Position numbers and translations under genes: made by a program
In this document: in pieces, positions 9,065 through 62,533 of the stretch
Numbering within the stretch: position 1 is the first letter of the stretch
Layout: each line of letters begins with the position of its first letter
The notes under the pieces: generated by a model
Seen by the model: only the letters and a program-made list of their open reading frames with translations
The model's database searches: none
What the model was told of the DNA's origin: nothing
Source of the DNA: Segatella baroniae B14
Lineage (GTDB): Bacteria; Bacteroidota; Bacteroidia; Bacteroidales; Bacteroidaceae
Direction: 5' to 3'
DNA length: 64,000 bases
Assembly: GCF_022024235.1 (NCBI RefSeq)
Contig: NZ_CP091799.1
Span: 908,001 to 972,000 of the forward strand

Positions 9065-9077
9065 CAGACAGACAAAA

Positions 9078-29831: not shown

Positions 29832-29862
29832 TTGTAAAATCATGAAATAATGTGTATCTTTG
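29832..29862 (+). promoter_or_regulatory. Promoter of the AbiE-type pair
   Basis: TTG at 29832-29834, 20 bp, then TATCTTTG at 29855-29862: a full Bacteroidales -33/-7 promoter 25 bp before the ATG at 29888. Confidence 0.7.
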
Positions 29863-29887
29863 CATCGCAATTATACACTACAACATC

Positions 29888-42100: not shown

Positions 42101-44020
42101 ATGGCAACAAATAATATAGAATTAAGAAGCATCCGTTCCCTATCAGGATTCAACTTCTACATACCAGACTATCAACGTGGTTATAGATGGTCTGATGGCC
42201 AGGTCAAGCAGATGCTCAATGACTTTAAGGAGTTCTGTAAACGGATTGATAATAAGCAGTTAAAGGCAGGAGAATTCTATTGTCTGCAACCTATTGTTGT
42301 CAAGAAAAGGACATGGACAGATACTGATGGTGGGCAGACTGTGACAACAGTCGGATATGAAGTAATCGACGGACAGCAACGTCTTACTACACTTTACATC
42401 ATTCTGAAGAGCGTTGAACAGGTATGCCAAATTCTATATCCCCAGTTCAAGTTTTATAGCATCAAGTATGAGACCCGACTTGAATATGATTCGCAAAACT
42501 ATCTCCAGAATATCAATACAAGTACAGCACAAGCTGACGAGTTTATTGATTTTTACTATATGAAATTAGTACATGATGCTGTTACATCATGGTTTGAAAG
42601 TAATCCTGACGACAAGTTGAAAATTGCTCGCGCATTATTAGAACAATCTATCGATTTAGACACAAATATTGATAATGAGAATAATATTCGGGTTATATGG
42701 TATGAAGTCATGGATGAGGAATCTGCCACCTCAATAGACATCTTTACTCGTCTAAACATTGGAAAGATTCCTTTGACCAATGCCGAACTGATAAAGGCAC
42801 TTTTGCTTCGTCGGGGAAATTTTGTAGATACAGATGTTACAATGAAGCAGTTGCAGATTGCTACCGAGTGGAACCGTATAGAGCAAAAGTTACAGGATGA
42901 TTCATTCTGGTATTTCCTGTACAGGACTGACAACCCTTTCATCTACGAGAACCGTATCGAGTTTATCTTTGACCTGATGAAAAACAGGACAAAGGACTCA
43001 GAGTTCTACCATACATTTAATGAGTTCAATAAAGATTTTGAAATGCTTCAGACAGATAAGGAGCATTATCGCAATGACCAGGCTCGCATAGACAAGATAT
43101 GGGATGGAGTCAAGGAAGTTTTCCAAAGTTTCGAGGAATGGTTTGAGGACAGAACCCTCTACCATTACATTGGTTTCTTAATTGAATACAAATCTGACAT
43201 CAAGAAGCTCATGAATGCGTCCACTTCCATGAACAAGAAACAATTCCTAGACGTATTCATAAAGAACGAAATTTCAGAAAAGATTGCCGGTATAAACCTT
43301 GATGACTTATCATTTAATGACAGTAAGGGGAACGTCAGGAAGATACTACTATTGTTTAACATCCTTACTGTTCTCCAAGACAAAAAATCAGATTTGCGAT
43401 TCCCGTTTAACAAATACAAAGTTGAAAAATGGGATATTGAACACGTCTGTTCACAAACGGACAAGCTAATTACTGACGAGAATCAGAGAAGACTTTGGAT
43501 CACTGACATGTTTGAATACTTTGTAGGGAGTTCTTCAAAAAAAGCTATTGATGAATATATAGAAAACTTGAAGTTGCAGATTGCGCAGACTGATGAAAGT
43601 TCAGATATTCAAGAAAAAGCCAAACTTCTCTCACTTCGGTCTGAGCTTGATGTTATTGAAACTATCAATGGCTTGTCCATGACAGAAGACAAGATTAATG
43701 ACTCTGAATTTGATGAAGCTTTCAAGAAGGTTCAGGCATATTTCCAAGAGGATAAAATTACTGATAAGGACAGTATCGCCAATTTAGCGTTGCTTGACCA
43801 AGAAACCAATCGCAGCTATGGGAATGCCTACTTCCCTGTTAAGCGTAAGCGGATTATATCCAATGATAAGATGGGTATATTTGTCCCTATTGCCACAAAG
43901 AATCTCTTTTTGAAATATTACTCACGAAAGAGTAATAGTCTAATGTCCTGGCAAGAATCAGATGCAGATGATTATCTTGACAGTATTAAATCACTTATTA
44001 TCCCTTTCACTAAAGCTTAG
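42101..44020 (+). CDS. DUF262/DUF1524 protein (GmrSD-like), gene 1
   Basis: 639 residues. DUF262 N-terminal domain: FYIPDYQRGYRWSDGQVKQM, then VIDGQQRLTTLYI (the DGQQR NTPase-like/ParB-like motif) and IFTRLNIGKIPLTNAELIKA. Near residue 445 a DUF1524-like HNH motif appears (WDIEHVCSQTD). This layout is that of GmrSD-type modification-dependent enzymes, which use NTP hydrolysis and cut modified phage DNA. It is followed after 5 bp by a second DUF262 gene. Confidence 0.8.
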   Translation: MATNNIELRSIRSLSGFNFYIPDYQRGYRWSDGQVKQMLNDFKEFCKRIDNKQLKAGEFYCLQPIVVKKRTWTDTDGGQTVTTVGYEVIDGQQRLTTLYIILKSVEQVCQILYPQFKFYSIKYETRLEYDSQNYLQNINTSTAQADEFIDFYYMKLVHDAVTSWFESNPDDKLKIARALLEQSIDLDTNIDNENNIRVIWYEVMDEESATSIDIFTRLNIGKIPLTNAELIKALLLRRGNFVDTDVTMKQLQIATEWNRIEQKLQDDSFWYFLYRTDNPFIYENRIEFIFDLMKNRTKDSEFYHTFNEFNKDFEMLQTDKEHYRNDQARIDKIWDGVKEVFQSFEEWFEDRTLYHYIGFLIEYKSDIKKLMNASTSMNKKQFLDVFIKNEISEKIAGINLDDLSFNDSKGNVRKILLLFNILTVLQDKKSDLRFPFNKYKVEKWDIEHVCSQTDKLITDENQRRLWITDMFEYFVGSSSKKAIDEYIENLKLQIAQTDESSDIQEKAKLLSLRSELDVIETINGLSMTEDKINDSEFDEAFKKVQAYFQEDKITDKDSIANLALLDQETNRSYGNAYFPVKRKRIISNDKMGIFVPIATKNLFLKYYSRKSNSLMSWQESDADDYLDSIKSLIIPFTKA

Positions 44021-44025
44021 AAGTT

Positions 44026-46587
44026 ATGGCACAGAATATGACAGAGTATAGAGGTGAACGTCTATCGTTCTTCAAAATCTTCTCGCAGAAGAACTTCAAA
44101 CTAGTTATCCCCATTATCCAACGTGATTATGCACAGGGAAGGACAAATGATGATACGAAAGAAGTTAGAACTGACTTTCTTGATGCCTTATATACTTACC
44201 TAAAGGAGAATAGACCGAATAGAGATTTGGATTTTGTTTATGGCACACTTCAGAAAGGGGATGACGAAGATGAACGAGTGCATTTCATTCCTCTTGATGG
44301 CCAGCAGAGATTAACAACATTGTTTCTCCTTCACTGGTTCTTATATCAGATATCAGATAACATTGAACTGAAATCAATGTTCAGGGATAAGCTTTTAGAT
44401 GGAGACAAATCTCAGTTTACCTATGAGACACGCCAAAGTAGCATTGATTTCTGTGATGCACTTATGAAGGCTAATGTTGACATGTTCAATCTTATCACGA
44501 TAAAGGATAAGCAAGGTCATGACGTGCCCTCTTTATCAGCTACCCTGAAGAATGAGCATTGGTACTATCGTATATGGAATAATGACCCGACAGTACAATC
44601 AATGCTTGTAATGTTGGATGCCATCTATCAGAAATTCGATGGAAAGAAGGAATACTTTGCCGGTCTGATGGATGAAGACAATCCTATCATTACGTTTATA
44701 TTCATGGATTTGAAAGAGTACAAGTTGACAGATGATTTGTATATTAAAATGAATTCAAGAGGTAAACCTCTATCAAAATTTGAGAATTTCAAAGCCAAAT
44801 TTGAGCAATACATCAAAGTTTTACTCAACAATGATGCATCTTTGAAGAACAAGAAGTACAAGATAAATTATTCATCGACAGAGACCGAGGTCGATTTATA
44901 TAAATACTTCTCATACAATATAGACACAAAGTGGACGACTTTGTTCTGGCAATATTGTAAAAACGGCAAGGCTCAGAACCTTGATTCATATATTGAGAAT
45001 TTTATCCGTGTCATTCTTACGTGCCATTATGCATCAAAGGTTGAGTTGGCACCAAAAGCTACTTCTGACGAAACGCTGAATGTGCTAATGAGTTCGGATT
45101 CGGATTACAAAAGCCTAACATTCAACAAATACGAAGGCACAAAGGCTCTTTCACTGGATGCTGTTTTGTCATTGGTAGATTCTCTTGACGCATTGTATAA
45201 TGGGAAAAACGGCATTAAACACTATGTATCCGAGGACTATAAGTTCTATTTTGATGAAGATGATATTTTCAAGAAGGTTATTGAAAATAACCTTACTCGA
45301 AATGAACGTATTCAGTTTTATGCATACATAAGGTTCTTAGTTCTGAATCAATGCAATGGTGATGGTATTGATGAGTGGATGAGAGTTATTCATAACATAT
45401 CACATCCAGACAACTCAATTATAGACGGTAATGATGATATGGCACGTGGCATCAGATCGGTTAATACGCTCTTGCCTTATGCTAACGACATCATCAACCA
45501 TCTTAAGAATCATTCAATTACTGGTTTTGCCACACATCAATGTGCAGAAGAATGTATCAAGGCACAACTCATTGACCGACCAATATGGAAACAAAGCATT
45601 GAGAATACAGAGAAACATCCATATTTTAATGGACAAATCGGATTCATACTTCAATTCTCTGGCATTTGTGATGACTATCAGCAGAATCACGAACTGAGAT
45701 GGTCTGAACAAGAAGAAAAAGACAAATTACATCTCTTCAAACGATATGCTCAGATAGCCTCTTATATGTTTGACCTTGACGCTAATGGTATCAGGTACAA
45801 TGATAAAAACTATTGTTTCGAACGTGCCATACTTGTTCAAGGTGACTATCTCATGGAAGCATCTAACGACAGGTTCAATCTCCTTTCTACAGAGACAGTT
45901 GCAAAGAATGTCAAACGTGACCATAGTTGGAAACGACTTTTGAGAATCAATGAAACGAGAGAAGAGTTGATCGAAAGCCAGAACTATGTCAAATCAGCTT
46001 TTGATAAAGTCTCAGACATGAATGATATTACTGGTTCCTTTGAAAATCAATGTGAAGATGTTAAGACAGGATCACAATGGCGTGATTTGTTAATAACTAC
46101 GCCCGAATTGTATGAGATCTCCGAGAAAGGCTTTATGGCTTTTGATGAAGACCAGCTGCTAATTCTAAGATACTGGTTCCGAAATTCATATCATGTGGAA
46201 CTCTATACATATCATCTCTGGTTGAATAAATTAGAGAACAACTTAATGGAGTTTTCTCCATTGTTTGAGCTTAATTACATGGAGCAAAAAACAGGAGACA
46301 TTACACCATTTATCCGACTCTCTGGATACACGTATAAACGAAACAAGTATCATATTGATATTCAATCCTCAATAAAAGAAAGTGACTGGAGTCTTGAAAC
46401 ATTCTGGGTATCATTTGCTTTTGATAATGAAAAGCGGACAGATTATCCAGATGATTTATTAGAAATCTTTAATGAACTCAAATTCACGAGAAGCGAAGTC
46501 GATAATTCGTACGAATGGACGTCATCTTCTGAAAACTCAGTTTTCAAAAAATTAAAAGAAATAATCAAAAGATTATTAGAACTTTGA
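44026..46587 (+). CDS. DUF262 protein, gene 2
   Basis: 853 residues. DUF262 motifs: LVIPIIQRDYAQGRTND, PLDGQQRLTTLFLLHWFL and KMNSRGKPLSKFENFKAKFE. The C-terminal 450 residues show no HNH motif by eye. Paired DUF262 genes, one with and one without DUF1524, suggest a two-subunit system. Terminator at 46686-46731. Confidence 0.78.
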   Translation: MAQNMTEYRGERLSFFKIFSQKNFKLVIPIIQRDYAQGRTNDDTKEVRTDFLDALYTYLKENRPNRDLDFVYGTLQKGDDEDERVHFIPLDGQQRLTTLFLLHWFLYQISDNIELKSMFRDKLLDGDKSQFTYETRQSSIDFCDALMKANVDMFNLITIKDKQGHDVPSLSATLKNEHWYYRIWNNDPTVQSMLVMLDAIYQKFDGKKEYFAGLMDEDNPIITFIFMDLKEYKLTDDLYIKMNSRGKPLSKFENFKAKFEQYIKVLLNNDASLKNKKYKINYSSTETEVDLYKYFSYNIDTKWTTLFWQYCKNGKAQNLDSYIENFIRVILTCHYASKVELAPKATSDETLNVLMSSDSDYKSLTFNKYEGTKALSLDAVLSLVDSLDALYNGKNGIKHYVSEDYKFYFDEDDIFKKVIENNLTRNERIQFYAYIRFLVLNQCNGDGIDEWMRVIHNISHPDNSIIDGNDDMARGIRSVNTLLPYANDIINHLKNHSITGFATHQCAEECIKAQLIDRPIWKQSIENTEKHPYFNGQIGFILQFSGICDDYQQNHELRWSEQEEKDKLHLFKRYAQIASYMFDLDANGIRYNDKNYCFERAILVQGDYLMEASNDRFNLLSTETVAKNVKRDHSWKRLLRINETREELIESQNYVKSAFDKVSDMNDITGSFENQCEDVKTGSQWRDLLITTPELYEISEKGFMAFDEDQLLILRYWFRNSYHVELYTYHLWLNKLENNLMEFSPLFELNYMEQKTGDITPFIRLSGYTYKRNKYHIDIQSSIKESDWSLETFWVSFAFDNEKRTDYPDDLLEIFNELKFTRSEVDNSYEWTSSSENSVFKKLKEIIKRLLEL

Positions 46588-48757: not shown

Positions 48758-49543
48758 TTAATCTTCGTGTATTGTCAACTTTCCATTCTTGAGTTCATAC
48801 ACCCTTATTCGAACTTTTATTTTCTCTAAGGGCAAACGAGTAGCTATAATTTTTGATTTATATTGTCCATTTGGTAAATAGGCTACCTTCCATGTGCTCA
48901 CCGAATTACCCTTAACATCTCCATATATCAATTTGAAAGAAGTGTCATTCAATCGTTCGATTTTTAAGAGAATATCAAAATCATGTGTATGATCCAAATT
49001 CAGTTGTTGAAGATAACTTACTCCCTCCTTACTCCAATAAAAACGGGATGACGTTATGAGTTTCAACTCTTTCTTAACGTAATTCTGCGCAATTTGATTT
49101 TCCTTTTTGAAGTTGTACTTGTTAGTCTTATAATCATTAATATATGTTTGCCGCAAAAGCTCGTCTGTTACTCTTTGGGATATTGGACGTCGATTAAAAT
49201 CAAATATGTCAACAACTCTAACCAGTTGCCCTTTTTCATTATAAACTTCTTCACCAATTACACGATATTGTGGATGTGACTTATATTTGTTGTAGGACAT
49301 TCGTAATGGGTATGCTTCAAATACATCCTCACTTTCCTCCTTGTCAATCCACTCCCATCCTTCAGTAGAATCAATAATAATTGGAATCTTTGTGAATTCA
49401 GAATTGTCACCTTTGTCATTATTTATCGAATCCTCAAAAGATGACATATTATCTATAGGAGCCTGACGTGGAACAACATCCTGTCCCAAAACTTGCACAG
49501 ATAAATATATCAATATGGCTATTAAGAAAAATCTATTATTCAT
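48758..49543 (-). CDS. Secreted hypothetical protein, 261 aa
   Basis: Signal peptide MNNRFFLIAILIYLSVQVLGQ. The mature part is acidic first (SFEDSINNDKGDNSEF), then a mixed, beta-rich region (GWEWIDKEESEDVFEAYPLR, YNEKGQLVRVVDIFDF). No family recognised. Gene order suggests it travels with the 3MG-like gene 17 bp away on the same strand. Confidence 0.55.
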   Translation of the reverse strand: MNNRFFLIAILIYLSVQVLGQDVVPRQAPIDNMSSFEDSINNDKGDNSEFTKIPIIIDSTEGWEWIDKEESEDVFEAYPLRMSYNKYKSHPQYRVIGEEVYNEKGQLVRVVDIFDFNRRPISQRVTDELLRQTYINDYKTNKYNFKKENQIAQNYVKKELKLITSSRFYWSKEGVSYLQQLNLDHTHDFDILLKIERLNDTSFKLIYGDVKGNSVSTWKVAYLPNGQYKSKIIATRLPLEKIKVRIRVYELKNGKLTIHED

Positions 49544-49803
49544 AATCTCAAATATATAAGGTGTAAATCTTTGCTTACTTTTCTCTCTTTTATATTAGCT
49601 ATTTCTTCGCTATAACGTGGCTGGGGTGAAAGATAGAGCTTATGCAAAGCTGTTCCACCTCGGAATGCCAACTGCGATGCAAGGAACTCATCACTAAAGA
49701 TGGAAACCAAGGCACGGCATATAATCAGGTCTTGCTCAATCTGGGCATTATCTATCCACGGAGCATGTTCGCTCCATTGCTGTATCGCTGTTCTATTAAT
49801 CAT
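49540..49803 (-). pseudogene. AbiEii toxin fragment
   Basis: The start at 49803 overlaps the stop of the antitoxin remnant (ATGA), as in intact AbiE pairs. It retains the nucleotidyltransferase start LAFRGGTALHKLYLSPQPRYSE, but just after RYSE the sequence diverges: the D-x-D residues expected there are lost and a 20-residue unrelated tail follows. This is a 5' fragment created by deletion. Confidence 0.65.
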
Positions 49804-50450
49804 ATATCGTCTGTTTCTATTTCTACGTTTATGTTTATCTTCCATCGGATATCTCTATTTGATGGATTGTCTTCTGTCGATGTACTTAAAGGTTGATATT
49901 TGAGATAACCCAAAGATGCACGAAGCTGTTCATACAAGTCATCTGCCAAGTTCTTTTCCTCAACGACATTTTCAAGTATATAGCCACGTTGCCATACAAC
50001 CTTTTTCACATAAGTTGCAAGTGGCGCAAACTGCTTATTAATGTCAATCTGCTCTGAAAGCTCTTCAAGTATGGTGGCGACTCGCGACAATCCACCCTCA
50101 TGTTGCTGATACTGCACAAGGTCTGCGGCTGTTAAAAGAGGATTTGATATACGGATAGTTCCCGTTTCAGTATTCTTTGTAATCAGGGCTTCCTCTGGCA
50201 ATCCATCCCGATAATACCAATCAATGGTTACATTACGAGTAGAGACGACCCGACGCTTAGGAAAAGTCGTCATTACAGAGAATTGCTGGGGACGCTGATG
50301 AGCTGTACCAAGTAGCTCTGCAGCACTAAGCATACATACATAGTAAGGCTTTTGCAGATACGACATTAACTGATCAATATAATAGGTTGCTGGCACAGAT
50401 CCACGCAACAAATATTGAACGGGAATAATAACGTAATAGCCTCTATAAAC
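49800..50450 (-). pseudogene. AbiEi antitoxin lacking its N terminus
   Basis: Homology can be followed back to about 50450 (VYRGYYVIIPVQYLLRGSVP), but no ATG or winged helix precedes it. The first possible starts are TTG codons at 50411. The body (YYIDQLMSYLQKPYYVCMLSAAELLGTAHQRPQQFSVM) is typical AbiEi. With the truncated toxin next to it, this third AbiE pair is non-functional. A -7-like TATATTTG on this strand lies near 50491-50498. Confidence 0.65.
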
Positions 50451-52306: not shown

Positions 52307-52723
52307 ATGAACCCACAATACGAAATACTTGCCAAATGTTTGTTGCCAACACATATGTTGGGGTTTGAACTGACCAATGTTGAGGTGAAGCCCAAGGAAA
52401 AGACAGCCACACAAGATACGGAGTCAGATGAGAGTCCTGTGAACGTTATCCATCTGTATCTTGACGAGAATGAGTTAACACCTGACAATCGTGAAGATTT
52501 GCACCCTAACGGCTTTACGCCAGCCAAGACCTTCCATGACTTTCCTATACGCGGTCAGGAGGTGCTGCTGCATGTGCGCTGCCGTCGCTGGTTTGACTCC
52601 GACAATCACAATGTCATGTCAGAGTTTGATTTTATCCAGGAGTCGACCCGCTGTTCGAAGGAACTGACGGATTTTTTTAAAGAAGCGTTTGGAGACGCTC
52701 CCTATAACGGCCCGTTCGTTTGA
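52307..52723 (+). CDS. ISAon1 N-terminal ORF
   Basis: 138 residues (MNPQYEILAKCLLPTHMLG). Acidic, ending with ELTDFFKEAFGDAPY. This is the short N-terminal-region protein that precedes the transposase in ISAon1 elements. It overlaps the next frame by 35 bp, consistent with a programmed frameshift joining the two. Confidence 0.75.
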   Translation: MNPQYEILAKCLLPTHMLGFELTNVEVKPKEKTATQDTESDESPVNVIHLYLDENELTPDNREDLHPNGFTPAKTFHDFPIRGQEVLLHVRCRRWFDSDNHNVMSEFDFIQESTRCSKELTDFFKEAFGDAPYNGPFV

Positions 52724-53735
52724 GAAAGACTATCACATCAACGGTGATAACTTCGAGCGCTCATACAAGGAGACAATCAGTGGTTTCAAGATCTGGAAAG
52801 ACGCAGACCATGCAGAGAACTGGGTGATAATCCCGAAGAATATGGGCACTCATCTGAGCATAGATGAGACATGTCTGTCCACAGGTGAGGTCTATACCAT
52901 CCTGTCCAACAAGGAGGCTCATGGGCGAAAGGGATGCCTCGTGGCCATTGTGAAGGGAACCAAGGCAAAGGAAGTTACAAGCATCCTGAAGAAGATACCG
53001 GAAGTAGTACACCTGCAGATTGAAGAGGTGACGCTTGACTTCTCCGACAGCATGCACCAGATTGTCAGTGCCTGCTTCCCCAAGGCGATGATTACCCTTG
53101 ACCGTTTCCATCACCAGCAGTTCTGTCTGGAGGCATTACAGGAAATACGCATTGGGCATCGCCGTGAGGTAATGACGGAGGTCGCTAATGCCAGAGATGA
53201 CTTCAGGGCTATGATAAAAGACCTGATCAAGAGCGGAAAGCCGCTTGTAGATGCAGAAGGCAAGCCAATCCGTAGCAATGCCACATACCATCCTGAGAGG
53301 CTGAAGAACAACGAGACAAAGGCAGAGCTGCTCATGCGCAGTAAATACCTGCTGATGGTGTCACCTGAGAAGTGGACTCCAAGCCAAAGGGAGCGTGCGG
53401 AGATACTCTTTGAGCTGTATCCTGATATAGAGATGGCGTACAGCCTGACATACTCTCTGAGGATGATCTTTGCCCAGAAGTACGACAAGGAAGCCGGACG
53501 TAAGAGCATCAAGAAGTGGTACGCCAAAGTAGGCGAGTTTGATAATAAAGCCTTCAACGACATTGCCGCAGCCATGTACGACAGGGAGGACGAAATACTC
53601 AACTATTTTGTGAACAGGTCAACCAATGCTTCTACAGAATCGCTGAATGCTAAGATTAAGGACTTCAGGGCTCAGTTAAGAGGTGTTATTGACAAGAAAT
53701 TCTTCATCTTCAGACTGGTCAAGATTTTCGGTTAA
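52689..53735 (+). CDS. ISAon1-type transposase
   Basis: 348 residues. ISL3-like DDE features: LSIDETCLSTGEVYTILSNKE (first Asp), LDFSDSMHQIVSACFPKAMITLDRFHHQQF (second Asp with the DRFHHQQ motif) and the later Glu in NASTESLNAKIKDFRAQLRG. Terminal inverted repeats lie just outside. It appears intact. Confidence 0.88.
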   Translation: METLPITARSFEKDYHINGDNFERSYKETISGFKIWKDADHAENWVIIPKNMGTHLSIDETCLSTGEVYTILSNKEAHGRKGCLVAIVKGTKAKEVTSILKKIPEVVHLQIEEVTLDFSDSMHQIVSACFPKAMITLDRFHHQQFCLEALQEIRIGHRREVMTEVANARDDFRAMIKDLIKSGKPLVDAEGKPIRSNATYHPERLKNNETKAELLMRSKYLLMVSPEKWTPSQRERAEILFELYPDIEMAYSLTYSLRMIFAQKYDKEAGRKSIKKWYAKVGEFDNKAFNDIAAAMYDREDEILNYFVNRSTNASTESLNAKIKDFRAQLRGVIDKKFFIFRLVKIFG

Positions 53736-53760
53736 TCCACGCGGTTATGCAGGTGACCCA

Positions 53761-54025
53761 GAAAATCACTATTCACATGGGACAACTCCTCACTAATTAG
53801 GCAATATGCTTCTGCACGTCCCTCCTGTTCTTTAAGGAAACACTTCAAAGCATGGAACTTTCCCGTCTGCTCATCTTTCATTTTGAACACTACAGCAAAA
53901 TTGCCACTGGTCATTACCGGTAGTCCATATTCATGCAAAACAGGACGAAGATTCTTCAGCTGGTCGAGATTGTCTTCAGCAGCATTAATGGCCTCGACGT
54001 ATTCTGTAATGAGTGGATAGTCCAT
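53761..54025 (-). pseudogene. Protein-kinase-like gene truncated by ISAon1
   Basis: 88 codons of an N-terminal kinase lobe: glycine-rich loop SGNFAVVFKM, ATP-binding Lys in HALKCF and a Glu-containing helix (GRAEAYCLISEEL). The reading frame runs into the inverted repeat of the insertion sequence at 53760 and stops, so the catalytic HRD and DFG regions are gone. It is the last gene of the Hsp70/TerB operon. The remainder is not found to the left of the IS. Confidence 0.7.
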
Positions 54026-54053
54026 GTCTTATTGCTTAAATTAGCTCAACTCA

Positions 54054-54431
54054 CTATGACTTTGAACAATTTTCCATATCGTTGGGACTAACAGCATCTT
54101 CAAATGAAACATTTATGCCGCAAAAGTCTGCTACAATATCATATATAGCTGTCTCATTTGTGTTAATATCCTCATCGACAATAATCATTTTGCTCATGAG
54201 AGCAGCAAAATACTTCTTTTGTTCTTCTGTAAGCAACCTAACCTGAGAGAGGGCGATAAGAGAGTTTTTAGCTTTTACTACCTTATGGTCTTTTGCAGTA
54301 AGCCCAAACTCCTTTTTCAATTGTTCAAAGAAGAAAGTTTCTCTTGCATCGATAATGCCATCGGCATGTATGATGTCCAATAAAATTCGCATCATAGCGA
54401 TTTTTTGCTGATATGTTAATTCCATTGCCAT
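54054..54431 (-). CDS. TerB-like protein
   Basis: 125 residues from ATG 54431, just after the previous gene's stop (an earlier ATG at 54458 would overlap it). The TerB helical domain shows MRILLDIIHADGIIDARETFFFEQLKKEFGL and a second half LTEEQKKYFAALMSKMIIVDEDINTNE, with two acidic metal-binding-type clusters (ADGIID and VDEDIN). TerB proteins occur in tellurite-resistance and phage-defence related systems with kinases and AAA/TPR partners. Confidence 0.75.
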   Translation of the reverse strand: MAMELTYQQKIAMMRILLDIIHADGIIDARETFFFEQLKKEFGLTAKDHKVVKAKNSLIALSQVRLLTEEQKKYFAALMSKMIIVDEDINTNETAIYDIVADFCGINVSFEDAVSPNDMENCSKS

Positions 54432-54436
54432 ATATT

Positions 54437-55954
54437 TTATTTTTTTACTATTCTCCAATCATCTTTAGAATTTTTAAGTAACTCAAATTGCTCTTCTGTT
54501 ACATCTCTTATAGCGTCTTTTGCTTTTGAGGGCTTCCCTGATGACGTATATTTTTGTACAGTAATGAGAACCCTGTTTTCATCAGTACCAAATAGTGAAG
54601 GAGATTCCACCTTTATTTTCTTCCCGCCCTTAGTAGACGGAGTAGGTTCTTGAACAATGTTTGGCACATCTTCATGAAAGGGAGGTTTATACGGAGATTG
54701 CTCCTGCCCCTGAAAAGGTGAATAGGATCCTTCGTATCGTTTCCCGTATCCATAACTACCAGATGAACCATCATAAGGGTAAGAGGATTTGCCATAAGGG
54801 TTATATGATGATTTCTTTTTCTTTTTTCCCTGACCGCGAGAGAATTCGCTCCTCATCATTTTTTCGCGTTCACGATCATCTTCCATACGTTGCATTTCAC
54901 GCTTAGCTTTCTCTTTTTCATACTCCTTTTGCATTTTGATTCTCTGCATTTCTGTTTGAGATTTATAAATTGGAAGAGGAAGATTCTCATATAAGCACGA
55001 GTACGTTTTATCGTGAGTTAATGCTATACCCAACATATATGAAGCAAGTGTGAAGGATTGACCAAATGATGCCTTGCAACGCTCAACAAACTCTTGATCA
55101 TAAGTAAAGTCATCCGAGAAGCGTTCTCTCATGACTAAATAATTGATGGCTACACTTATGAAATCTACATCTGGCACAAATTCCGAAATCTTCTGAAGAA
55201 AACCAGAAGCTCGCTCATCTAGTCTTAAGCGATCATTAATATCATTAGATTTCAAATTTAAACCATTATAGGAATCAAGGATTTTATAGATTGCTGTACC
55301 CTCAACTTCATAATCATCCACCTCACGCTTTGCCATAAAATTGCATATAACATGAACTACATCCATGTAAAAGCCAAGTGTGTCTTTGGGATAGAAAGAA
55401 TGTCGCTCATATCGCATTAAGTAAGTCCAAATAGGCTTATTTCCGTTGGGACGAATATTATCATAAACATCAGATAGCATCTCTTCTACGGATATGTCAT
55501 CAATGATTGATTTGCAGAACTGCAATCCTTCCAATTTGAAAATGTTAAAGATATTTCTGGTGCCCTGCATTGAACTGTCAAACATTTGCCGTTTCTGAAT
55601 AAGGCTGACAGCATTATCCCATATGGGGTTATCTATGCGGATATGTTCGTCGAAAGATGATTCAAATTCCTTCTTAGCTTCTAAATCAAGAGGGAATATG
55701 TGTTGAACCTCCTCAATTGATATCGTTGCAGGGTTACTTAAACTGTCTTTCTTCTCATAATGCAATATAAGATATGCAAATGAACTGTCGAAAGAGTTAA
55801 CTTCCGCGAATATTGAATCATACAATTCTGGTTTTGATTCAATTTCTGGAATAGAACAATCAAAAGGAACAATTTTTTCCTTGTTCACGTTTAAAAAGCC
55901 ATATTTATACAAATCAATAAAATCGGCTCTTCTTAATAGTATCAAATAATTCAT
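54437..55954 (-). CDS. Hypothetical protein with coiled coil and Ser/Tyr/Gly-rich tail
   Basis: 505 residues. The N-terminal 340 are a globular helical region of unknown family. Residues about 343-375 form a charged coiled coil (MQKEYEKEKAKREMQRME). Then comes a Lys-rich patch (RGQGKKKKKSS) and about 60 residues rich in Tyr, Gly, Ser and Pro (YGKSSYPYDGSSGSYG), possibly a phase-separating or adaptor region. A small C-terminal domain (VLITVQKYTSSGKPSKAKDA) ends it. It probably bridges TerB and the NTPases; the gene lies 2 bp from the NTPase gene. Confidence 0.6.
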   Translation of the reverse strand: MNYLILLRRADFIDLYKYGFLNVNKEKIVPFDCSIPEIESKPELYDSIFAEVNSFDSSFAYLILHYEKKDSLSNPATISIEEVQHIFPLDLEAKKEFESSFDEHIRIDNPIWDNAVSLIQKRQMFDSSMQGTRNIFNIFKLEGLQFCKSIIDDISVEEMLSDVYDNIRPNGNKPIWTYLMRYERHSFYPKDTLGFYMDVVHVICNFMAKREVDDYEVEGTAIYKILDSYNGLNLKSNDINDRLRLDERASGFLQKISEFVPDVDFISVAINYLVMRERFSDDFTYDQEFVERCKASFGQSFTLASYMLGIALTHDKTYSCLYENLPLPIYKSQTEMQRIKMQKEYEKEKAKREMQRMEDDREREKMMRSEFSRGQGKKKKKSSYNPYGKSSYPYDGSSGSYGYGKRYEGSYSPFQGQEQSPYKPPFHEDVPNIVQEPTPSTKGGKKIKVESPSLFGTDENRVLITVQKYTSSGKPSKAKDAIRDVTEEQFELLKNSKDDWRIVKK

Positions 55955-55956
55955 AA

Positions 55957-57123
55957 TTAAATTCCAAATATATTGTTAGTACCCGCATTTATGGTTTGTC
56001 CATTCAATGCATCATGAATATTTATTTCAATACATTCCCCTGCAAAGTTGGAAAGATAAGCAGACCTTGTCCCGCTATGCGTAAGATAAAGGTTTTTGCG
56101 ACTTCTCGTCATCGCCACCATAAAAAGCGTCCTACTTAGTATTTCACTACTGTTTATATACAAGGACTGATTAAGGCCTGGCAGAAAAACATTATCAAAG
56201 TCAAGACCTTTTGAGCTGTGGTATGTCATCAAGCAGATTTTTCCGCTAGTTTCTGTGAATGAACCATACCCGTTTCCTACATATTGCATCTTTACATCTT
56301 GTGATGCCAGATATTGATTTAGTGCATTGTAATTCACTTTGCCATAATTGTTTAATTGTGCATTCCAGCGAGGCTTACCCAATACGGATAATGCTGTCTG
56401 AACAAAACTAATAATACTTCCGTGCGAAGGAATTAAGATGGCAGCTGTATCACCAACGCCAACAGCTTTTTGAGCTTCACGCATAACATACTTAACCTCA
56501 TCACTCATTGATGTAGCAGTACATAGTCTGATTTGAGTCGTACGCTTATTCATGTTTCTCTTTGCAGTGAAGATATTCATATTGGGTAGAAACTTTTGTA
56601 CGGCAGCAATGATGGAACTTGATAGTCTATGAATTATTCCAAGTTCGAAGTCACGAGAATTTAAGAGTGCCGTTATTTGCGTTGGAGTAACAGTTGGCTC
56701 TCTGAACTTTGGGTCACTATCGTAAATTGACTGGTTTTCATCGCCAGCCACGATAACATGTTTAGCTCTGCTATTCATAGAAGCTAATACACGCCCCGTC
56801 ATATCCTGTATCTCGTCACTTAGTACATAATCATAAGAACTTCCCCCTCTCATGAAGTCATAATATGTCATGATATTGGCGGCAATGCCCATTTCTGCAA
56901 AAGCGGCTTTAAACATGGCAATGAGAGAATGCGTAAAGACAACAACTGCAACTTTAGCATTTGGGTCTCTACGTTTAATCTTTTTCATTGTGTATGCTAA
57001 TAAAACTGACTTGCCTGAACCAGGAAATCCCTTAATCCAAACATTTTGTCTGTCAATGTCTACATTCTCGACAAATTGACGCTGCTGATCATCCAGCATA
57101 TTTTCCGGTACTAACCATGCCAT
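55957..57123 (-). CDS. Minimal SF1/UvrD-like P-loop NTPase, canonical copy
   Basis: 388 residues. Walker A KGFPGSGKSVLL (about 31-42), Walker B LSDEIQDM (DExQ), motif III AGDENQSIYD, motif V MTYHSSKGLDFDNVFLPG and motif VI MVAMTRSRKNLYL are all intact. The protein is half the length of UvrD, with no recognisable 1B/2B insertions. It begins MAWLVPENMLDD, nearly identical to its neighbour (MGWLVPENMWD), so the pair arose by duplication. Confidence 0.82.
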   Translation of the reverse strand: MAWLVPENMLDDQQRQFVENVDIDRQNVWIKGFPGSGKSVLLAYTMKKIKRRDPNAKVAVVVFTHSLIAMFKAAFAEMGIAANIMTYYDFMRGGSSYDYVLSDEIQDMTGRVLASMNSRAKHVIVAGDENQSIYDSDPKFREPTVTPTQITALLNSRDFELGIIHRLSSSIIAAVQKFLPNMNIFTAKRNMNKRTTQIRLCTATSMSDEVKYVMREAQKAVGVGDTAAILIPSHGSIISFVQTALSVLGKPRWNAQLNNYGKVNYNALNQYLASQDVKMQYVGNGYGSFTETSGKICLMTYHSSKGLDFDNVFLPGLNQSLYINSSEILSRTLFMVAMTRSRKNLYLTHSGTRSAYLSNFAGECIEINIHDALNGQTINAGTNNIFGI

Positions 57124-57134
57124 AATATTATAGT

Positions 57135-58292
57135 TTAAATTGCAAAAATATTATCATTATTCATGTTACTATTTATAGAATCAATACAATGTAGTCTCAC
57201 ACATTTATCTTTTATTAGTAGTAAGTATGGATGCATAGAACCACTAAATACAAGATATAGGTTACGAAGGGCTCTTGTCATTGCCAAGACAAAGACATTC
57301 TTGCTAGCTTCATCGCTCGGACTGATATATAGACTTGAATTGAGATACGGTAAAAATACGTTGTCGTATTTAAACCCCATTGAACCATGATATGTCATAA
57401 TGTTAATCTTGTTTTCAAGGTCTGACAGTCGACCATAGCTACTTCCTAAGCATTGATAATTAATATCGTTAGATATCAAATATTGATTAAGATTGTTATA
57501 GTCAATTCTCCCCCATTTATTCAAAACTTCATTCCAAGGATCCTTACCTTCTTGTTTAATTAAAGCCTGTGCAAAGTTTAACATGTCTCGATTTGTCGCC
57601 AATAAAATAGCAGACGTAGATCCACATCTAAGACATTTTTCCGACTCCTTTATAATAAATTGAACTTCTTCATCAACACAAGAACCTTCATAAATGCGAA
57701 CTTGCTGACGTTGACGTGAATTCATGGAATTCATTATGGGTTTGGTCATTTTTTTATTTAATATCAGTTCGGACAATCCAATAATATACCCATCATAATT
57801 GTGATTATATATTAAATCAAATTCTTTAGGATGCAAAGTTTCTCGGATTTGTTCTATCGTCAAAAGTGGCTCTTTAGTTTGTGGGGCATATTCAAAAAGT
57901 TTGAGATATGGATTAATAGTGACAATAATGTGAGTTGTCATTTTTCTTATTTCAGAAAGCAATTTCTGACTTATTAGTTGAACATCATCGCATAAAATGT
58001 AATCATAATGGTTGGGGGCTTTGCGGAATTGCCAATATGTTAACACTTTAGTCCTTATACCAATCTCAGAAAAAGCTTTTCTAAATTTTTCTACCTCAAC
58101 ATTCCTATAAACAAGCACAAGAATCCTTGAAATATTATTTAATCTTAGAATCTTTCTTATTAGACACATTAGAGTGAACGACTTTCCGCAATCCATATTG
58201 CCAGAAATGCAGATAGTCGTATCTGATAAGCCATATTCTATGACATTCCGAGTAGTCGGATCCCACATGTTTTCAGGAACAAGCCAACCCAT
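57135..58292 (-). CDS. Minimal SF1-like NTPase, degenerate paralogue
   Basis: 385 residues from ATG 58292 (MGWLVPENMWD), chosen to match the paralogue; a longer frame reaches 58382 but overlaps the Hsp70 gene. Walker A ISGNMDCGKSFTL and motif VI AMTRALRNLYLV remain. Walker B is CDDVQLI (Asp-Asp instead of Asp-Glu), motif III has lost the Gln (TINPYLKLFEY) and motif V reads MTYHGSMGFKYDNVFLP. It probably binds but poorly hydrolyses nucleotide, acting as a partner of the downstream copy. Confidence 0.75.
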   Translation of the reverse strand: MGWLVPENMWDPTTRNVIEYGLSDTTICISGNMDCGKSFTLMCLIRKILRLNNISRILVLVYRNVEVEKFRKAFSEIGIRTKVLTYWQFRKAPNHYDYILCDDVQLISQKLLSEIRKMTTHIIVTINPYLKLFEYAPQTKEPLLTIEQIRETLHPKEFDLIYNHNYDGYIIGLSELILNKKMTKPIMNSMNSRQRQQVRIYEGSCVDEEVQFIIKESEKCLRCGSTSAILLATNRDMLNFAQALIKQEGKDPWNEVLNKWGRIDYNNLNQYLISNDINYQCLGSSYGRLSDLENKINIMTYHGSMGFKYDNVFLPYLNSSLYISPSDEASKNVFVLAMTRALRNLYLVFSGSMHPYLLLIKDKCVRLHCIDSINSNMNNDNIFAI

Positions 58293-58311
58293 AGTTATTT
58301 TTTTTCGTAAA

Positions 58312-60720
58312 TTAACTCTTTTGTAATGCTTTTGTCCTTGTTTGTGTAAGATTATCTGCATCATAATAAGCAGTCTGCTCAATCTTTGGTTTCGCAGATC
58401 TTATTTCAAAGGCTTTGTCACGCATGCCAAGTTCTTCGGCTACAGAAGCGAACCAGCCATAATCAGCACGGTTTAATGAGTTGGTCTTCCATCTTCTCTC
58501 ATAGGCGTCAAATGCGACTTGTAACTTTAATTTAGCATCTTCTGCTTTCCCTTCCTGTTTGTCTATCCTTCCAAGAAGAATATTTACGCAAGGTTCTGAT
58601 GGATTTATCTCGTATGCTTTTTCAAGATGTTTTCTTGCACGTTTGGGGTCTTGGAATAAAAGTGTGTTGCCAATATTGAAATTAGGCCAATAGTCGTTAG
58701 GATTATGTTCTATGGCCCTTTCAAAGAACTCAACGGCTTTATGTCTATTTCCTGAATTGTGGTAATAAACACCAATCAGATTGTAATCGCTAGGATTCGG
58801 ATATATTTCGTTTTGCTGCTCTAACGTTTCTGCAGCTCGGAAGTCGTTTCCGGCATCTTCATATGCTTTCCTTAATTTTACGAGAGCATTCTTGGTTGGG
58901 ACACCTCCATTTTTCTCTGTTTCAATATTTGCTTCCCTTTCCGCTCTCAACACGATCCTCTCCTCAGTTGTTAATTCTTTATTTGCAAATGGGTTCTGGG
59001 GTTCAACCATACAATTTACCCCCATACAAGATGCTTTGGCTAAGAGTAGCTTATCTGCTGTAATTTCTACAGCTAGCGAAACTTGGGCAGATGTCGGGAA
59101 TCCACCATCTCTTGTGATTTTAAGGTTGAATAGCATTTTGTTCTCACTACCAACACAAATAGGGAGCTCAATAGCCTCTTGTTTCTCTTTTGTTGGCATT
59201 AAGTCATCAACAACAACTGTGTCACTAGGAATTGTTGTTCCTGCAGGAATAAGTACTTTGTTTGTCGTGTCTTTAGTAATAACGAAAATAGGCTCACTAG
59301 TAATAGGCTGTATGATGCATTTGTTCATACCGTTCATTAATAGCGAATGTATGGCAGCTCCTTTTGAAACATGTGTCTGTAGATCCTGGGGGACAAGAAT
59401 CTCAGCATCGTCAAAATAGTCTTTAATAGCCTCCTGAATAAATGGATTTTGAGCACTGCCGCCAATTAAAAGTATATAATCAATCTCTGATTTCTTAACA
59501 TTAGCCTTTCTGATAGCACTATCAATTGGCATGAAAATGTTATTGTAGTCCTCTTGACCGCTTATAGTGGTGGCTAATTTGGAATTCTTTACGAAGACAG
59601 ACATTGCTTCGCAGAACTCCTTATTTGAAAGATAAAAAGAGGATTGTGACAAAACGCCCTTACGTGTCTCTATGTTGATATCCACAGATATTTCTTCCTT
59701 GTCATCACGAGTCTTGAGGTGTTTGGGAATCTCCAGCTTATACACCTGTGTAGCAATTTTCTTACATATCAGTATTTTGAGCCTTTCTGCTACCTTATAT
59801 AACTGAGTGGCTATAAATTGCCTTTCCTTAGTTCTAAAATCTTCTGCTTTTACGTTGTTATGCTCAAAGAACCGTGGTAACAGATATTTATAGGTTAAAA
59901 ATCTGTCAACGTCATCGCCTCCCAATTTAGTGAACTTTGAAATCGCAACGTTCTTTGAGTATAATCCATTGACAGACTTTCCTATTTCTAGTATCGAGAT
60001 ATCACATGTACCACCACCAAAGTCGAAAACAAGGACTTTAGAATTGTAATGAGGACTAATAAGTAATGGCTTATCCGACTCTTCACTGTCATGAACATAA
60101 CTAATGAAAGCAGCATTTGGCTCGTCAATAAGAGACTGTTTTGTTACTGTCATTCCGTTAGTTTCCAATGCCTCCATTAGTTCTTTTCGCTGGTTTGCCT
60201 CAAAAGAAGCTGGAATACTTACCGCATAATCGATATTCTCAGATAATCCATTGTCTTTACAATACCTTTTTATTAGCATGTTTAGATACATGAAGAATAC
60301 CCTTACACAGTCTTTGGGATTTCTTATGTTAATGCCTTCCATGCTTCCAACCTCGCTTTCGTAATATTTCGCTCCAAGGTCTTCACCGATTTCCATCTTA
60401 AAGGAGAACCAGATGTTCTTACCCTTTGTTAGGGAATATTTCAAATTAGAAGCACCTTCTCCTACTAACAAACGGCCATTATACCAAGCTATTACACTTG
60501 GTAATTTTTCACTTTGAAAGATTGTCCCGTCTTCTAAGACCTGTGTCATCTGGATAGGCAACGTCTTAATAGAGTTCTTGCCATCTTCTTTGGTGGCTAT
60601 AGAAACAACTGTAGTCGATGTTCCAAAATCAATGCCAACATAAGTTCTTCCTTTGACCAACTGGGTCTCAGCCATCGTTGGAAGCATTGAATGAATGGAT
60701 AAAATATTGGAGTTATTCAT
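58312..60720 (-). CDS. Hsp70-like chaperone with C-terminal TPR
   Basis: 802 residues (a second ATG at 60675 would remove 15). The actin/Hsp70 nucleotide-binding domain shows YVGIDFGTSTTVVSI, VFDFGGGTCDISILEIG and ILLIGGSAQNPFIQEAI. A beta-rich, SBD-like part follows (about 480-590), then a helical linker and at least three TPR units near 650-770 (YNLIGVYYHNSGNRHKAVEFF, NFNIGNTLLFQDPKRARKHL, NILLGRIDKQEGKAEDAKLK). Far longer than and different from housekeeping DnaK. It leads the operon with the two NTPases, TerB and kinase. Confidence 0.88.
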   Translation of the reverse strand: MNNSNILSIHSMLPTMAETQLVKGRTYVGIDFGTSTTVVSIATKEDGKNSIKTLPIQMTQVLEDGTIFQSEKLPSVIAWYNGRLLVGEGASNLKYSLTKGKNIWFSFKMEIGEDLGAKYYESEVGSMEGINIRNPKDCVRVFFMYLNMLIKRYCKDNGLSENIDYAVSIPASFEANQRKELMEALETNGMTVTKQSLIDEPNAAFISYVHDSEESDKPLLISPHYNSKVLVFDFGGGTCDISILEIGKSVNGLYSKNVAISKFTKLGGDDVDRFLTYKYLLPRFFEHNNVKAEDFRTKERQFIATQLYKVAERLKILICKKIATQVYKLEIPKHLKTRDDKEEISVDINIETRKGVLSQSSFYLSNKEFCEAMSVFVKNSKLATTISGQEDYNNIFMPIDSAIRKANVKKSEIDYILLIGGSAQNPFIQEAIKDYFDDAEILVPQDLQTHVSKGAAIHSLLMNGMNKCIIQPITSEPIFVITKDTTNKVLIPAGTTIPSDTVVVDDLMPTKEKQEAIELPICVGSENKMLFNLKITRDGGFPTSAQVSLAVEITADKLLLAKASCMGVNCMVEPQNPFANKELTTEERIVLRAEREANIETEKNGGVPTKNALVKLRKAYEDAGNDFRAAETLEQQNEIYPNPSDYNLIGVYYHNSGNRHKAVEFFERAIEHNPNDYWPNFNIGNTLLFQDPKRARKHLEKAYEINPSEPCVNILLGRIDKQEGKAEDAKLKLQVAFDAYERRWKTNSLNRADYGWFASVAEELGMRDKAFEIRSAKPKIEQTAYYDADNLTQTRTKALQKS

Positions 60721-60795
60721 AACAGTTTTATTTATATCTGTGAATTATTTGCGTAAATTTACAACAAATATTCTATTTGCTTATTAGTTATGCTT

Positions 60796-61050
60796 TCACA
60801 AGCCTTGTGAAATCTCTTTTTTCCCTTCTTGGGGGAGAAGATAGCTCTTCTTGTATTCGCTTACTAGAAGTTCTTTAATATCAACTTCCAACAAATCTGC
60901 CATCTTCAAAAGGTTGCTGAGATCAGGCTGTGACGAATTAGTACACCATTTTGAAACAGTTGATGGTGTTACCCCCAACTGCTCTGACAACCACTTACTG
61001 GTACGCTTTTTCTCGACAAGCACCAATTTGATGCGATTAATATCTTCCAT
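60796..61050 (-). CDS. XRE-family transcriptional regulator
   Basis: 84 residues with a Cro/CI-type helix-turn-helix (TSKWLSEQLGVTPSTVSKWCTNSSQPDLSNLLKMADLLEV). The C-terminal tail is short and polar. It is divergent in position from nothing else: it lies 75 bp upstream of the Hsp70 gene on the same strand and likely controls the operon. Confidence 0.85.
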   Translation of the reverse strand: MEDINRIKLVLVEKKRTSKWLSEQLGVTPSTVSKWCTNSSQPDLSNLLKMADLLEVDIKELLVSEYKKSYLLPQEGKKEISQGL

Positions 61051-61077: not shown

Positions 61078-61139
61078 ATGAAAATATTTCAATTTATAAT
61101 ACTTCGCCTTTAGAATATATGCCAAATCATGTTTTTTTT

Positions 61140-62451
61140 GGTTCATCAGACAAATGACGTGATGTTAAATTGAATTGAAAAGAAATAGCTGGAAAATTCA
61201 TATCTTTGTAGCGACCAAACTATAAATGACATGATAAATTCCAGCTTCCTGTTTTTCGCATTCGGCATCAATGGATTCCAATGCAACAGTTTCAGCCACA
61301 AAGATAGCCAAATAGTTTTGAATATCCAAAAGCGAATGGACAAAATGCGCTGTCCATGTTGTAAGAGTCGTCATATTATTCGTAATGGTTATGTATGGCG
61401 CGACTTCAAGACTGTCCCGATAGGTCATATTCCAGTAGTCCTTCATACAAAGATTCAACGTATAAAGTGCAAGGATTGCGGTTGTGACATGCAGGAGGAG
61501 ATCCACTTTGCTCATGGTAAGCGCACCTATACTGCTCGTTTGGAGAACCTTGTAGTGGACCTGCTTGATATTGCAACCATCAAATCGGTGGCAGAATACC
61601 TCCATCTGACATGGGATACTGTAAAGGACATTCATAAACGTCGTCTGAAATCCAGGTATGGTAATCCGAACATACGGAATGTAAAGAGCATAGGAATAGA
61701 TGAGTTCGCAGTACGTAAAGGACATGTATACAAGACTATTGTCGTGGATTTGGAGACAGGCAGGATTATATATGTGGGAGACGGTAAGGGTGTAGATGCC
61801 CTGAAAGGTTTCTGGCGCAAGGTAGACCATTATGGGGTTGTCATTGAGCATATAGCTACAGATTTATCAAAGGCCTTCATTGCTTCTGTGATGGAACATG
61901 CACCGCTTGCCGTACATGTGTTTGACCATTTCCATGTTGTAAAGCTCATGAATGATGCGATAGACAAACTTAGAAGCAGGATGTACCATGAGGAGAAGGA
62001 TCTCAATAGACGGAAGGTCATAAAGGGTATGAGATGGCTGTTGCTCTGTAATGGTAAGGACATCTATGATGACAAACACAAGGAGAGACTTGAGAATGCC
62101 CTAGCCATGAACAAACCTCTTGCACAGGCGTACTATTTAAAGGAGAGCATGAGGGAAATATGGATGCAAGTCACTAAAACTCATGCAGAATCTTTCCTAG
62201 ACGAATGGATCAGACAAGCCAGGAGTACTAAAGTATCACTGATAGAAAAGGTGGCAAATACTATTGCAGCATATCGATCCGGCATCCTAGCATGGTACGA
62301 CTGTCACATATCTACTGCTAAAGTCGAAGGTATCAATAATAAGATCAAAGTACTCAAAAGAAATGCATACGGACTCAGGGATGATAAGTACTTTGAACTT
62401 AGACTCTATGCCTTACACGACAGACGCATCACGTCATTTGTCTGATGAACC
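61140..62451 (+). mobile_element. ISL3-family insertion sequence
   Basis: Perfect 25-bp terminal inverted repeats (left 61140-61164, starting GGTTCATCAGACAAATGACG; right 62427-62451). One transposase gene with a -7 box TATCTTTG at 61201-61208. Flanking bases do not show an 8-bp target duplication. Appears intact. Confidence 0.88.
61231..62445 (+). CDS. ISL3-family transposase
   Basis: 404 residues. N-terminal zinc ribbon (CPCCKSRHIIRNGYV, IKCKDCGCDM), HTH region (TIKSVAEYLHLTWDTVKDIHKRRL), then the DDE core: IGIDEFAVRKGHVYKTIVVDLETGRI, TDLSKAFIASVMEHAPLAVHVFDHFHVVKLMNDAID and the Glu in TAKVEGINNKIKVLKRNAYG. The C terminus runs into the right inverted repeat. Confidence 0.93.
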   Translation: MINSSFLFFAFGINGFQCNSFSHKDSQIVLNIQKRMDKMRCPCCKSRHIIRNGYVWRDFKTVPIGHIPVVLHTKIQRIKCKDCGCDMQEEIHFAHGKRTYTARLENLVVDLLDIATIKSVAEYLHLTWDTVKDIHKRRLKSRYGNPNIRNVKSIGIDEFAVRKGHVYKTIVVDLETGRIIYVGDGKGVDALKGFWRKVDHYGVVIEHIATDLSKAFIASVMEHAPLAVHVFDHFHVVKLMNDAIDKLRSRMYHEEKDLNRRKVIKGMRWLLLCNGKDIYDDKHKERLENALAMNKPLAQAYYLKESMREIWMQVTKTHAESFLDEWIRQARSTKVSLIEKVANTIAAYRSGILAWYDCHISTAKVEGINNKIKVLKRNAYGLRDDKYFELRLYALHDRRITSFV

Positions 62452-62533
62452 ATAATTATCAATTTAAAATATTCACTTGTTCACATTTCCGAACATCAAA
62501 ATCCAGAAATAAGATGGAGAACTAGACTAAGTA

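Follow-up and report, generated by a model that had tools for sequence, protein, structure and literature searches.

A recurrent, mobile three-gene cassette of Hsp70-TPR, an SF1-type NTPase and ADP in Segatella baroniae B14, and its possible role in chaperone-gated defence

We analyzed a group of seven genes in Segatella baroniae B14, which lie in a stretch of 64,000 nucleotides (contig NZ_CP091799.1, positions 908,001 to 972,000, forward strand) that we call the window and whose own positions are used below. An original prediction, made from the letters alone, had read them as one candidate conflict operon. All seven minus-strand open reading frames (ORFs) were confirmed (53732-61050), together with their tight, operon-like spacing: from the XRE gene to the kinase fragment, the gaps are 75, 19 (from the ATG), 11, and 2 nt, followed by a 22-nt overlap (ADP and TerB genes) and a gap of 28 nt. 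The conserved unit is three genes, in the order Hsp70-TPR, SF1b-type NTPase, and ADP. The members of this triad, the remaining genes, and the two flanking transposable elements are as follows.

58312-60720, minus strand: Hsp70-TPR, 802 aa, core gene 1 (HSP70 5.2e-34; TPR families at about 610-736)
55957-57123, minus strand: SF1b, 388 aa, minimal UvrD/PcrA-like NTPase with intact motifs, core gene 2 (UvrD_C 8.3e-16)
54437-55954, minus strand: ADP (a provisional name), 505 aa, core gene 3 (homologues in 34 of 35 observable loci; AlphaFold model)
57135-58292 from the ATG, minus strand: SF1a, 385 aa, degenerate paralogue of SF1b, predicted pseudo-NTPase (34% identity to SF1b)
60796-61050, minus strand: XRE-family DNA-binding protein, probable regulator, optional (HTH_3 1.5e-10)
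54054-54458, minus strand: TerB-like protein, optional 3' add-on (PF05099 7.6e-6, above gathering)
53732-54025, minus strand: N-terminal fragment of a Ser/Thr-kinase-like protein, 97 aa, outside the conserved unit (STK_OB, Pkinase)
52307-53735, plus strand: ISL3-type transposase unit, interrupts the kinase gene (DDE_Tnp_ISL3 1.2e-45 on the second ORF)
61136-62455, plus strand: ISL3-family insertion sequence, just upstream of the XRE gene (DDE_Tnp_ISL3 6.9e-67)

The conserved unit was defined by a survey of a collection holding one genome per species (84,980 species), with an alignment of three SF1b-type proteins as the query. This yielded 40 loci in named genomes, detected via two conserved SF1 motifs, so divergent members will have been missed. 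Most are from Bacteroidota; the others come from Haemophilus, Arcobacteraceae, Lentisphaeria, and two metagenome-assembled genomes labeled Acidimicrobium and 'Bacillota'. Homologues across loci were assigned by protein clustering, and by phmmer (E ≤ 1e-4) for the kinase. Hsp70-TPR is found in 35 of the 40 loci, 34 by clustering and L036 by a 55-aa match near a contig edge; as for the other five, L019 starts at a contig edge, and L030, L033, L047, and L048 lack the gene. ADP is found in 34 of the 35 loci where it can be observed (33 by clustering, and L046 at 1.4e-10 by a profile built without it), a count that omits L017, L026, L044, L049, and L050, whose contigs stop before the ADP position. 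The start-minus-end distance from Hsp70 to SF1 ranges from −25 to +23 across the survey, and that from SF1 to ADP is mostly 0 to 19, with extremes of −78 and 156. Some members are broken: SF1 is split in L043, and both SF1 and ADP are split in L042, the source of the 156-nt value.

The rest of the window operon is variable. A TerB homologue follows ADP in 8 of the 40 loci (eight of the other 32, namely L015, L017, L026, L028, L037, L044, L049, and L050, end too early), an XRE gene like that of the window lies upstream of Hsp70 in three (L015, L016, and L017), no homologue of the kinase fragment was detected in any of the 40 loci at the above threshold, and paired SF1 genes occur in this window alone, no other locus having two. 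We therefore rejected a seven-gene unit, since the kinase, XRE, and TerB genes are not conserved alongside the triad. The kinase fragment is present as originally described; it turned out to be cut by the ISL3-type unit and to stand outside the conserved genes. It matches Pkinase at E = 0.0097, below gathering, and the PADLOC model STK_OB at 7.6e-9 over residues 1-89. In a genome-wide search for its remainder, the sole other STK_OB match sat on the second of the genome's two contigs. The interrupting transposase unit consists of two overlapping ORFs in different frames (52307-52723 and 52689-53735), and the ISL3-family element upstream of the XRE gene has 29-bp terminal inverted repeats (61136-61164 and 62427-62455).

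We take the names and roles of the Hsp70 and SF1 motifs here to be those of general knowledge. In Hsp70-TPR, an Hsp70 nucleotide-binding domain is followed by the beta part of a substrate-binding domain and then by TPR repeats. The nucleotide-binding motifs are invariant across 28 rows, and positions 391-628 of a profile of 28 homologues align to DnaK 313-557, the substrate-binding beta region. With both the motifs and the substrate-binding part in place (PF00012 5.2e-34), the Hsp70 of the triad is apparently active, as judged from its sequence. The SF1b profile matches UvrD/PcrA structures, and the protein has their two RecA-type domains; its length of 388 aa suggests that there is no room for domains 1B and 2B. 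It retains at least 49 of 51 near-invariant family positions (SF1b itself being one of the 36 reference rows).

SF1a and SF1b are paralogous, with 34% identity along their length (E 6.6e-78), which bears out the claim that the two NTPases share one origin. The notion of a pair of UvrD-like NTPases holds for SF1b, which is intact; SF1a is degenerate, and the pair is absent from the other loci. Of the 51 positions at which at least 35 of the 36 other rows agree, SF1a retains 28. Missing from it are the Walker-B glutamate (E104D), motif III (GD..QS), the arginine of motif IV (R166N), and the motif V lysine K305; K38, D103, and R340 remain. Because these catalytic motifs are lost, a second ordinary NTPase was rejected, and SF1a is probably a maintained pseudo-NTPase. 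In the tree it groups in a 14-row Bacteroidales clade (100/100), where its terminal branch of 2.65 makes the exact placement unsure. An alternative TTG start at 58382 is possible for this gene.

The third protein, ADP, had been described as coiled-coil and of low complexity, a description that the structural model corrects. The AlphaFold2 model has a predicted local distance difference test (pLDDT) score mostly above 90 over residues 1-375, with a predicted ART-like domain at about 1-110, a helical domain at about 115-375, and a disordered tail of about 125 residues. At E ≤ 0.1, ADP matches none of the families in Pfam, NCBIfam, or PADLOC; sequence searches of Pfam and the PDB likewise gave no family, and a search among viral folds gave nothing at E ≤ 0.001. 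The whole-protein model matched CC0527 and DarT at Z ≤ 6.2, within the tool's stated noise, and the N-terminal domain was therefore refolded alone (pLDDT 93). The refolded domain matched 23 PDB entries at Z 2-6 (best 6.0), and, going by their titles, 21 or 22 of these have ART-type folds; they include CC0527/DUF952, DarT, Tpt1/KptA, Rhs ART toxins, and others, with VPA0770 unsure and Cas3-AcrF3 not of this type. We consider an ART fold likely, not proven, for this domain, because Z scores of about 6 are middling and the best Foldseek E is 0.05.

The triad is rare. In the genome surveys of order and phylum, two to four candidates were scored per genome, and seven in the survey of Campylobacterota. 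The same two of 393 order genomes, one of them the window's own, were matched by the SF1 and Hsp70-TPR profiles, and the ADP profile found both of them and, in addition, one weak match confined to the tail. Across 392 genomes of the phylum, SF1 turned up in 2, and among 100 close relatives, ADP turned up in 2, the window's own genome again being included in each count. A partner-swap search of 249 Campylobacterota genomes gave one match, which was already among the known loci.

The clearest case of mobility is Haemophilus sp. HMSC068C11 (L031), in which the triad fills a 5.4-kb insert between flanks that extend up to about 7338 and resume from about 12776. These flanks are only 50-91 bp apart in nine of ten other Haemophilus genomes, which lack the insert; the tenth matches one side of the site only. 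Besides Hsp70-TPR, SF1, and ADP, the insert holds no ORF of at least 60 aa. The triad is thus a self-contained unit. The SF1 tree also mixes taxa, placing Tannerella with Raineya (98/92); the Haemophilus SF1 branches among Bacteroidota, but on a long branch with support of only 92/91. On a plasmid of Antarctobacter (Alphaproteobacteria), genes for an Hsp70, an AAA ATPase, and a hypothetical protein lie in that order between IS6 and IS256, and a Persicobacter plasmid carries a distant triad. The plasmid search also returned a Priestia Hsp70 without a triad.

We rejected a phage-borne system in general from scans of viral contigs and phages with SF1 and Hsp70-TPR. Of the SF1 scans of viral contigs, one found no relative and another gave two short C-terminal matches (about 50-55 residues), and the SF1 scan of phages gave a single C-terminal match covering 16% of the query. 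The Hsp70-TPR scan of viral contigs gave two contigs with HEPN fusions (L079 and L080).

The original prediction would have failed had homologous clusters been confined to core chromosomal housekeeping genes or had the gene set lacked conservation. Instead, the empty Haemophilus sites and the conserved triad mark a recurrent, horizontally moved cluster rather than a core housekeeping operon, so the prediction came through this test. The conflict operon it proposed survives as such a cluster, often near defence genes, with a composition reduced from seven genes to three.

In several loci, the Hsp70 position is taken by, or fused to, something else. In L033 it holds HamA (Cap4 nuclease and HamA, 7.5e-200) and HamB (1.1e-216), which end 43 nt before SF1 and are followed by SF1 and ADP. 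In L030 it holds genes for a JAB-like protein (a Prok-JAB match below gathering), an E2-like protein (1.3e-4), a ThiF/E1 protein, and a ClpB-like Hsp100, with SF1, ADP, and TerB coming next; L047 has a near-identical gene set by clustering. In both L030 and L047, a 60-aa ORF (5814-5996) lies between the E2- and E1-like genes and overlaps the start of the E1 ORF; it could be a candidate ubiquitin-like or Pup-like modifier. In L046, PglZ and BrxL (BREX) come just before an Hsp70-TPR with an N-terminal Swt1-like HEPN domain (PF18731 7.6e-11, above gathering). The same fusion was found below gathering in L053, L079, and L080, and the RxxxxH motif is kept in all four proteins. These fusions show that the Hsp70 can carry an attached effector. 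L079 (944-10367), a contig from IMG/VR, carries GTA-type (gene transfer agent) tail genes (GTA_TIM 1.3e-152) and then the HEPN-Hsp70-TPR gene at the contig end. In L080 (2037-8270), a Piwi-domain protein (2.6e-5, below gathering) is encoded near the HEPN-Hsp70 gene, which by eye stops short beside an IS3-type transposase.

Defence or toxin-antitoxin (TA) genes are adjacent or near in at least 14 of the 40 loci (L024, L026, L027, L030, L033, L036, L038-L041, and L044-L047), as picked by eye and without a background rate; such a recurrent neighbourhood is what the original prediction had anticipated. Nineteen distinct neighbour proteins, picked by eye as likely defence genes, were scanned for families. 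Among the neighbours are SspB-SspC-SspD (L024), a DrmD-like helicase with a methylase (L027), type IIG restriction-modification (R-M) genes (L039, and L026, where they end 30 nt before Hsp70), type I restriction genes (L041 and L044), RT-UG19 (L040, where one other neighbour has no family), AbiEi/AbiEii (L036), Schlafen-AlbA (L038), HepT with an ADP-ribosylglycohydrolase (L045), and HepT with a DarT-domain protein (L047). The last of these (14033-16030, 665 aa) has a C-terminal DarT domain (PF14487 2.2e-17) and is the second gene after TerB. In L045, a 447-aa protein (6102-7445) is encoded directly upstream of Hsp70, after the MNT/HepT and ADP-ribosylglycohydrolase genes; it has a weak TerB match (phmmer 5.4e-5) and no Pfam or PADLOC family at E ≤ 0.001. 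In L048, which lacks Hsp70, a gene for a 1233-aa helicase with DUF559 and Zn-ribbon domains (6171-9872, minus strand) is divergent from the SF1 gene.

The window itself encodes two AbiE pairs, a GmrSD-like pair, an integrase, a Mob_Pre protein, and an ArdC-like protein, so the original prediction was reasonable in placing the operon next to defence islands on a mobile element. The AbiEi/AbiEii toxin-antitoxin pairs are separate (29852-31488 and 39400-41077), and further AbiE-like fragments lie near 49540-50411 (by eye). The GmrSD-like genes (42101-46587) are an adjacent pair of GmrSD_N (DUF262) proteins, of which only the first has a GmrSD_C match.

The triad repeatedly lies inside or beside virus-defence systems, and it is therefore probably an undescribed, chaperone-controlled defence module. 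More specifically, we lean with moderate confidence toward reading it, from its sequences, as a mobile conflict cassette that is gated by a chaperone and most likely directed against phages or mobile elements. SF1b and ADP would form the constant part of the cassette, and Hsp70-TPR would act as a gate or sensor driven by ATP, either holding or loading these two proteins. The trigger may be an invader-derived or unfolded protein sensed by Hsp70-TPR. Competition between clients, or ATP turnover, could then free SF1b-ADP or assemble it on nucleic acid, where it would block the invader or shut down the cell itself. In some members, the HEPN domain on the gate would be the likely RNase effector; in others, the front end may instead be Hachiman HamAB or an Hsp100 accompanied by genes for ubiquitin-like conjugation. 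TerB would be an accessory of the SF1b-ADP end, and in the window the degenerate SF1a probably serves as a regulatory subunit paired with SF1b. A broader idea, which we hold more tentatively, is that SF1b and the ART-like ADP are a defence chassis that accepts various exchangeable front ends driven by ATP (Hsp70-TPR, HEPN-Hsp70-TPR, an Hsp100 disaggregase with a ubiquitin-like conjugation set, or HamAB), in which proteostasis machinery would sense infection and to which the window may add a dead NTPase paralogue as a regulator.

It is important to note that several results weigh against the reading as a defence cassette. Because TerB and XRE vary between loci, conservation does not extend to the whole window operon. 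The Hachiman version is a single locus, and the Clp version is two near-identical loci. In L048 (E 0.6) and in the Antarctobacter and Persicobacter plasmid triads, the third protein is not detectably ADP, the E values for the three lying at 0.2-0.6. The 14 defence-associated loci were chosen by eye, as said above, and the other 26 have no defence gene recognised nearby (judged by eye and partly scanned, several contigs being short). Some neighbours are quite ordinary: pectinesterase and DUF4859 (L013), NqrA (L031), and a histidine kinase (L023) by family scan, and those of L012 and L014 by eye. In the plain triad, no effector and no nuclease was recognised. Besides its middling fold scores, the ART-like domain of ADP has no invariant column in 34 rows and no conserved catalytic residues; F12 and G19 alone reach 90% conservation.

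These points leave room for three other explanations. An unlikely one is that the genes form a protein-quality or stress-tolerance operon, in which Hsp70-TPR (or ClpB) and the NTPase would protect the cell under proteotoxic or DNA stress and the defence-island location would be hitch-hiking. The Hsp70 motifs look active, and it is a ClpB-like Hsp100, from the class that is the classical partner of Hsp70, that replaces Hsp70; the 26 loci without a recognised defence neighbour also fit. Such an operon, however, would not be expected to be linked on the same strand to Hachiman, BREX, and type IIG R-M genes or to be fused to HEPN domains, nor to be as rare and patchy as 2 of 392 phylum genomes, the window's own included.

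Slightly less probable still is a chaperone-controlled, TA-like maintenance module that would stabilise mobile elements rather than confer immunity, with ADP as a toxin held by Hsp70-TPR and SF1b as a co-factor. In its predicted fold, the N-terminal domain of ADP is similar to DarT, Rhs ART toxins, and other ART folds, the cassettes are located on mobile-element and plasmid DNA, and an ADP-ribosylglycohydrolase gene is near the cassette of L045. In addition, three-gene SecB-ART TA systems are described as chaperone thresholding in the part of the literature considered here (PMC7159879). Against this, the expected catalytic places in ADP have no conserved polar residue in 34 rows, no ART family is among the best 25 of 28 families matched at E ≤ 1 by 35 ADP proteins, the large triad would be costly for a TA system, and the Haemophilus insert has no further ORF of at least 60 aa.

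Least probable, and doubtful in our view, is a helper module, inactive alone, that boosts or licenses neighbouring Hachiman, BREX, R-M, or Ssp systems while SF1b and the chaperone strip proteins from invader DNA: the operon-like joins with HamAB, PglZ-BrxL, and restriction endonuclease genes, and a motor core in SF1b without a recognised nuclease, would suit it, but the triad is inserted alone in Haemophilus and many other loci have no partner system among the neighbours listed.

The defence-cassette reading matters because few defined systems permit a test of the proposal that chaperones act as threshold switches in bacterial immunity. The triad offers an Hsp70 that appears active beside one motor and one uncharacterised protein, the three being insertable together as a unit. 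The natural swaps (Hsp100 and HamAB), the HEPN fusions, and the putative pseudo-NTPase indicate which parts are constant and which are exchangeable. If the triad is confirmed as a defence system, chaperone gating of an immune effector would become directly testable, and Hachiman and E1/E2-type operons would gain an unrecognised partner module.

Comparison with known systems places the triad near several of them. The published parts considered here describe CoCoNuT types II and III as predicted immune operons near R-M and BREX that contain an Hsp70-like protein, an SF1 helicase, and HEPN RNases, with types II and III-A often accompanied by TerY-P kinases (PMC11090510). The combination of Hsp70-like and SF1 components and the neighbourhood are shared with the triad, as is HEPN in its fused members. 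According to the same account, however, the CoCoNuT core is an McrB-type GTPase with a DUF2357 McrC, which the Haemophilus insert does not have; its SF1 is UPF1-like with insertions, whereas SF1b is UvrD/PcrA-like with no large insertion after GSGKS; and its Hsp70 has degenerate motifs and HEAT-like repeats, whereas the triad Hsp70 keeps its motifs and has TPRs (PMC11090510). No McrB or McrC family was among the matches listed for the seven window proteins.

The chaperone-threshold idea itself comes from work, considered here in part, that proposed Hsp70 and other chaperones as an effector threshold or switch in conflict systems (PMC7159879). The GAP1-N2 GTPase systems in that work likewise have HSP70 as a proposed switch, and the chaperone part is displaced in relatives (PMC7159879). 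These systems center on a TRAFAC GTPase, which the triad does not have, and the portion considered shows no pairing of an SF1 NTPase with an ART-like protein (PMC7159879). No GTPase family was among the matches listed for the seven window proteins, or among the ORFs of at least 60 aa in the Haemophilus insert.

Among the loci scanned, Hachiman genes occur in L033 only, where HamA and HamB take the Hsp70 slot before SF1b and ADP; HamB is a DEAD-box protein, whereas SF1b belongs to SF1, and neither HamA nor HamB was among the matches listed for the window proteins. SF1b scores against the GajB models of Gabija as a UvrD-like NTPase (best 3.8e-19), but it is shorter and has its own family, and no GajA was among the matches listed. 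Likeness to Ter and TerY-P systems comes from the TerB gene of the window and from the kinase fragment, which resembles the N-terminus of an OB-fused kinase model. Membership in a Ter-type system, which had been suggested earlier, was not supported: TerB is in 8 of 40 loci only, the kinase (a 97-aa fragment cut by an insertion sequence) recurs in none, and no TerC, TerD, vWA, or PP2C phosphatase match was found among the seven proteins. The predicted fold of ADP residues 1-119 resembles DarT and DUF952 (CC0527) with best Z of 5.3-6.0, but at 6-14% sequence identity and without conserved catalytic residues. The 2023 release of PADLOC-DB has no model for Hsp70-TPR or ADP at E ≤ 0.1, and no description of this gene set was found in the open-licence PubMed Central literature, in agreement with the initial impression that no described system has this composition. 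The components and the idea of chaperone gating are already known; this gene combination is undescribed, and in it an SF1b-ADP pair is joined to an Hsp70-TPR gene.

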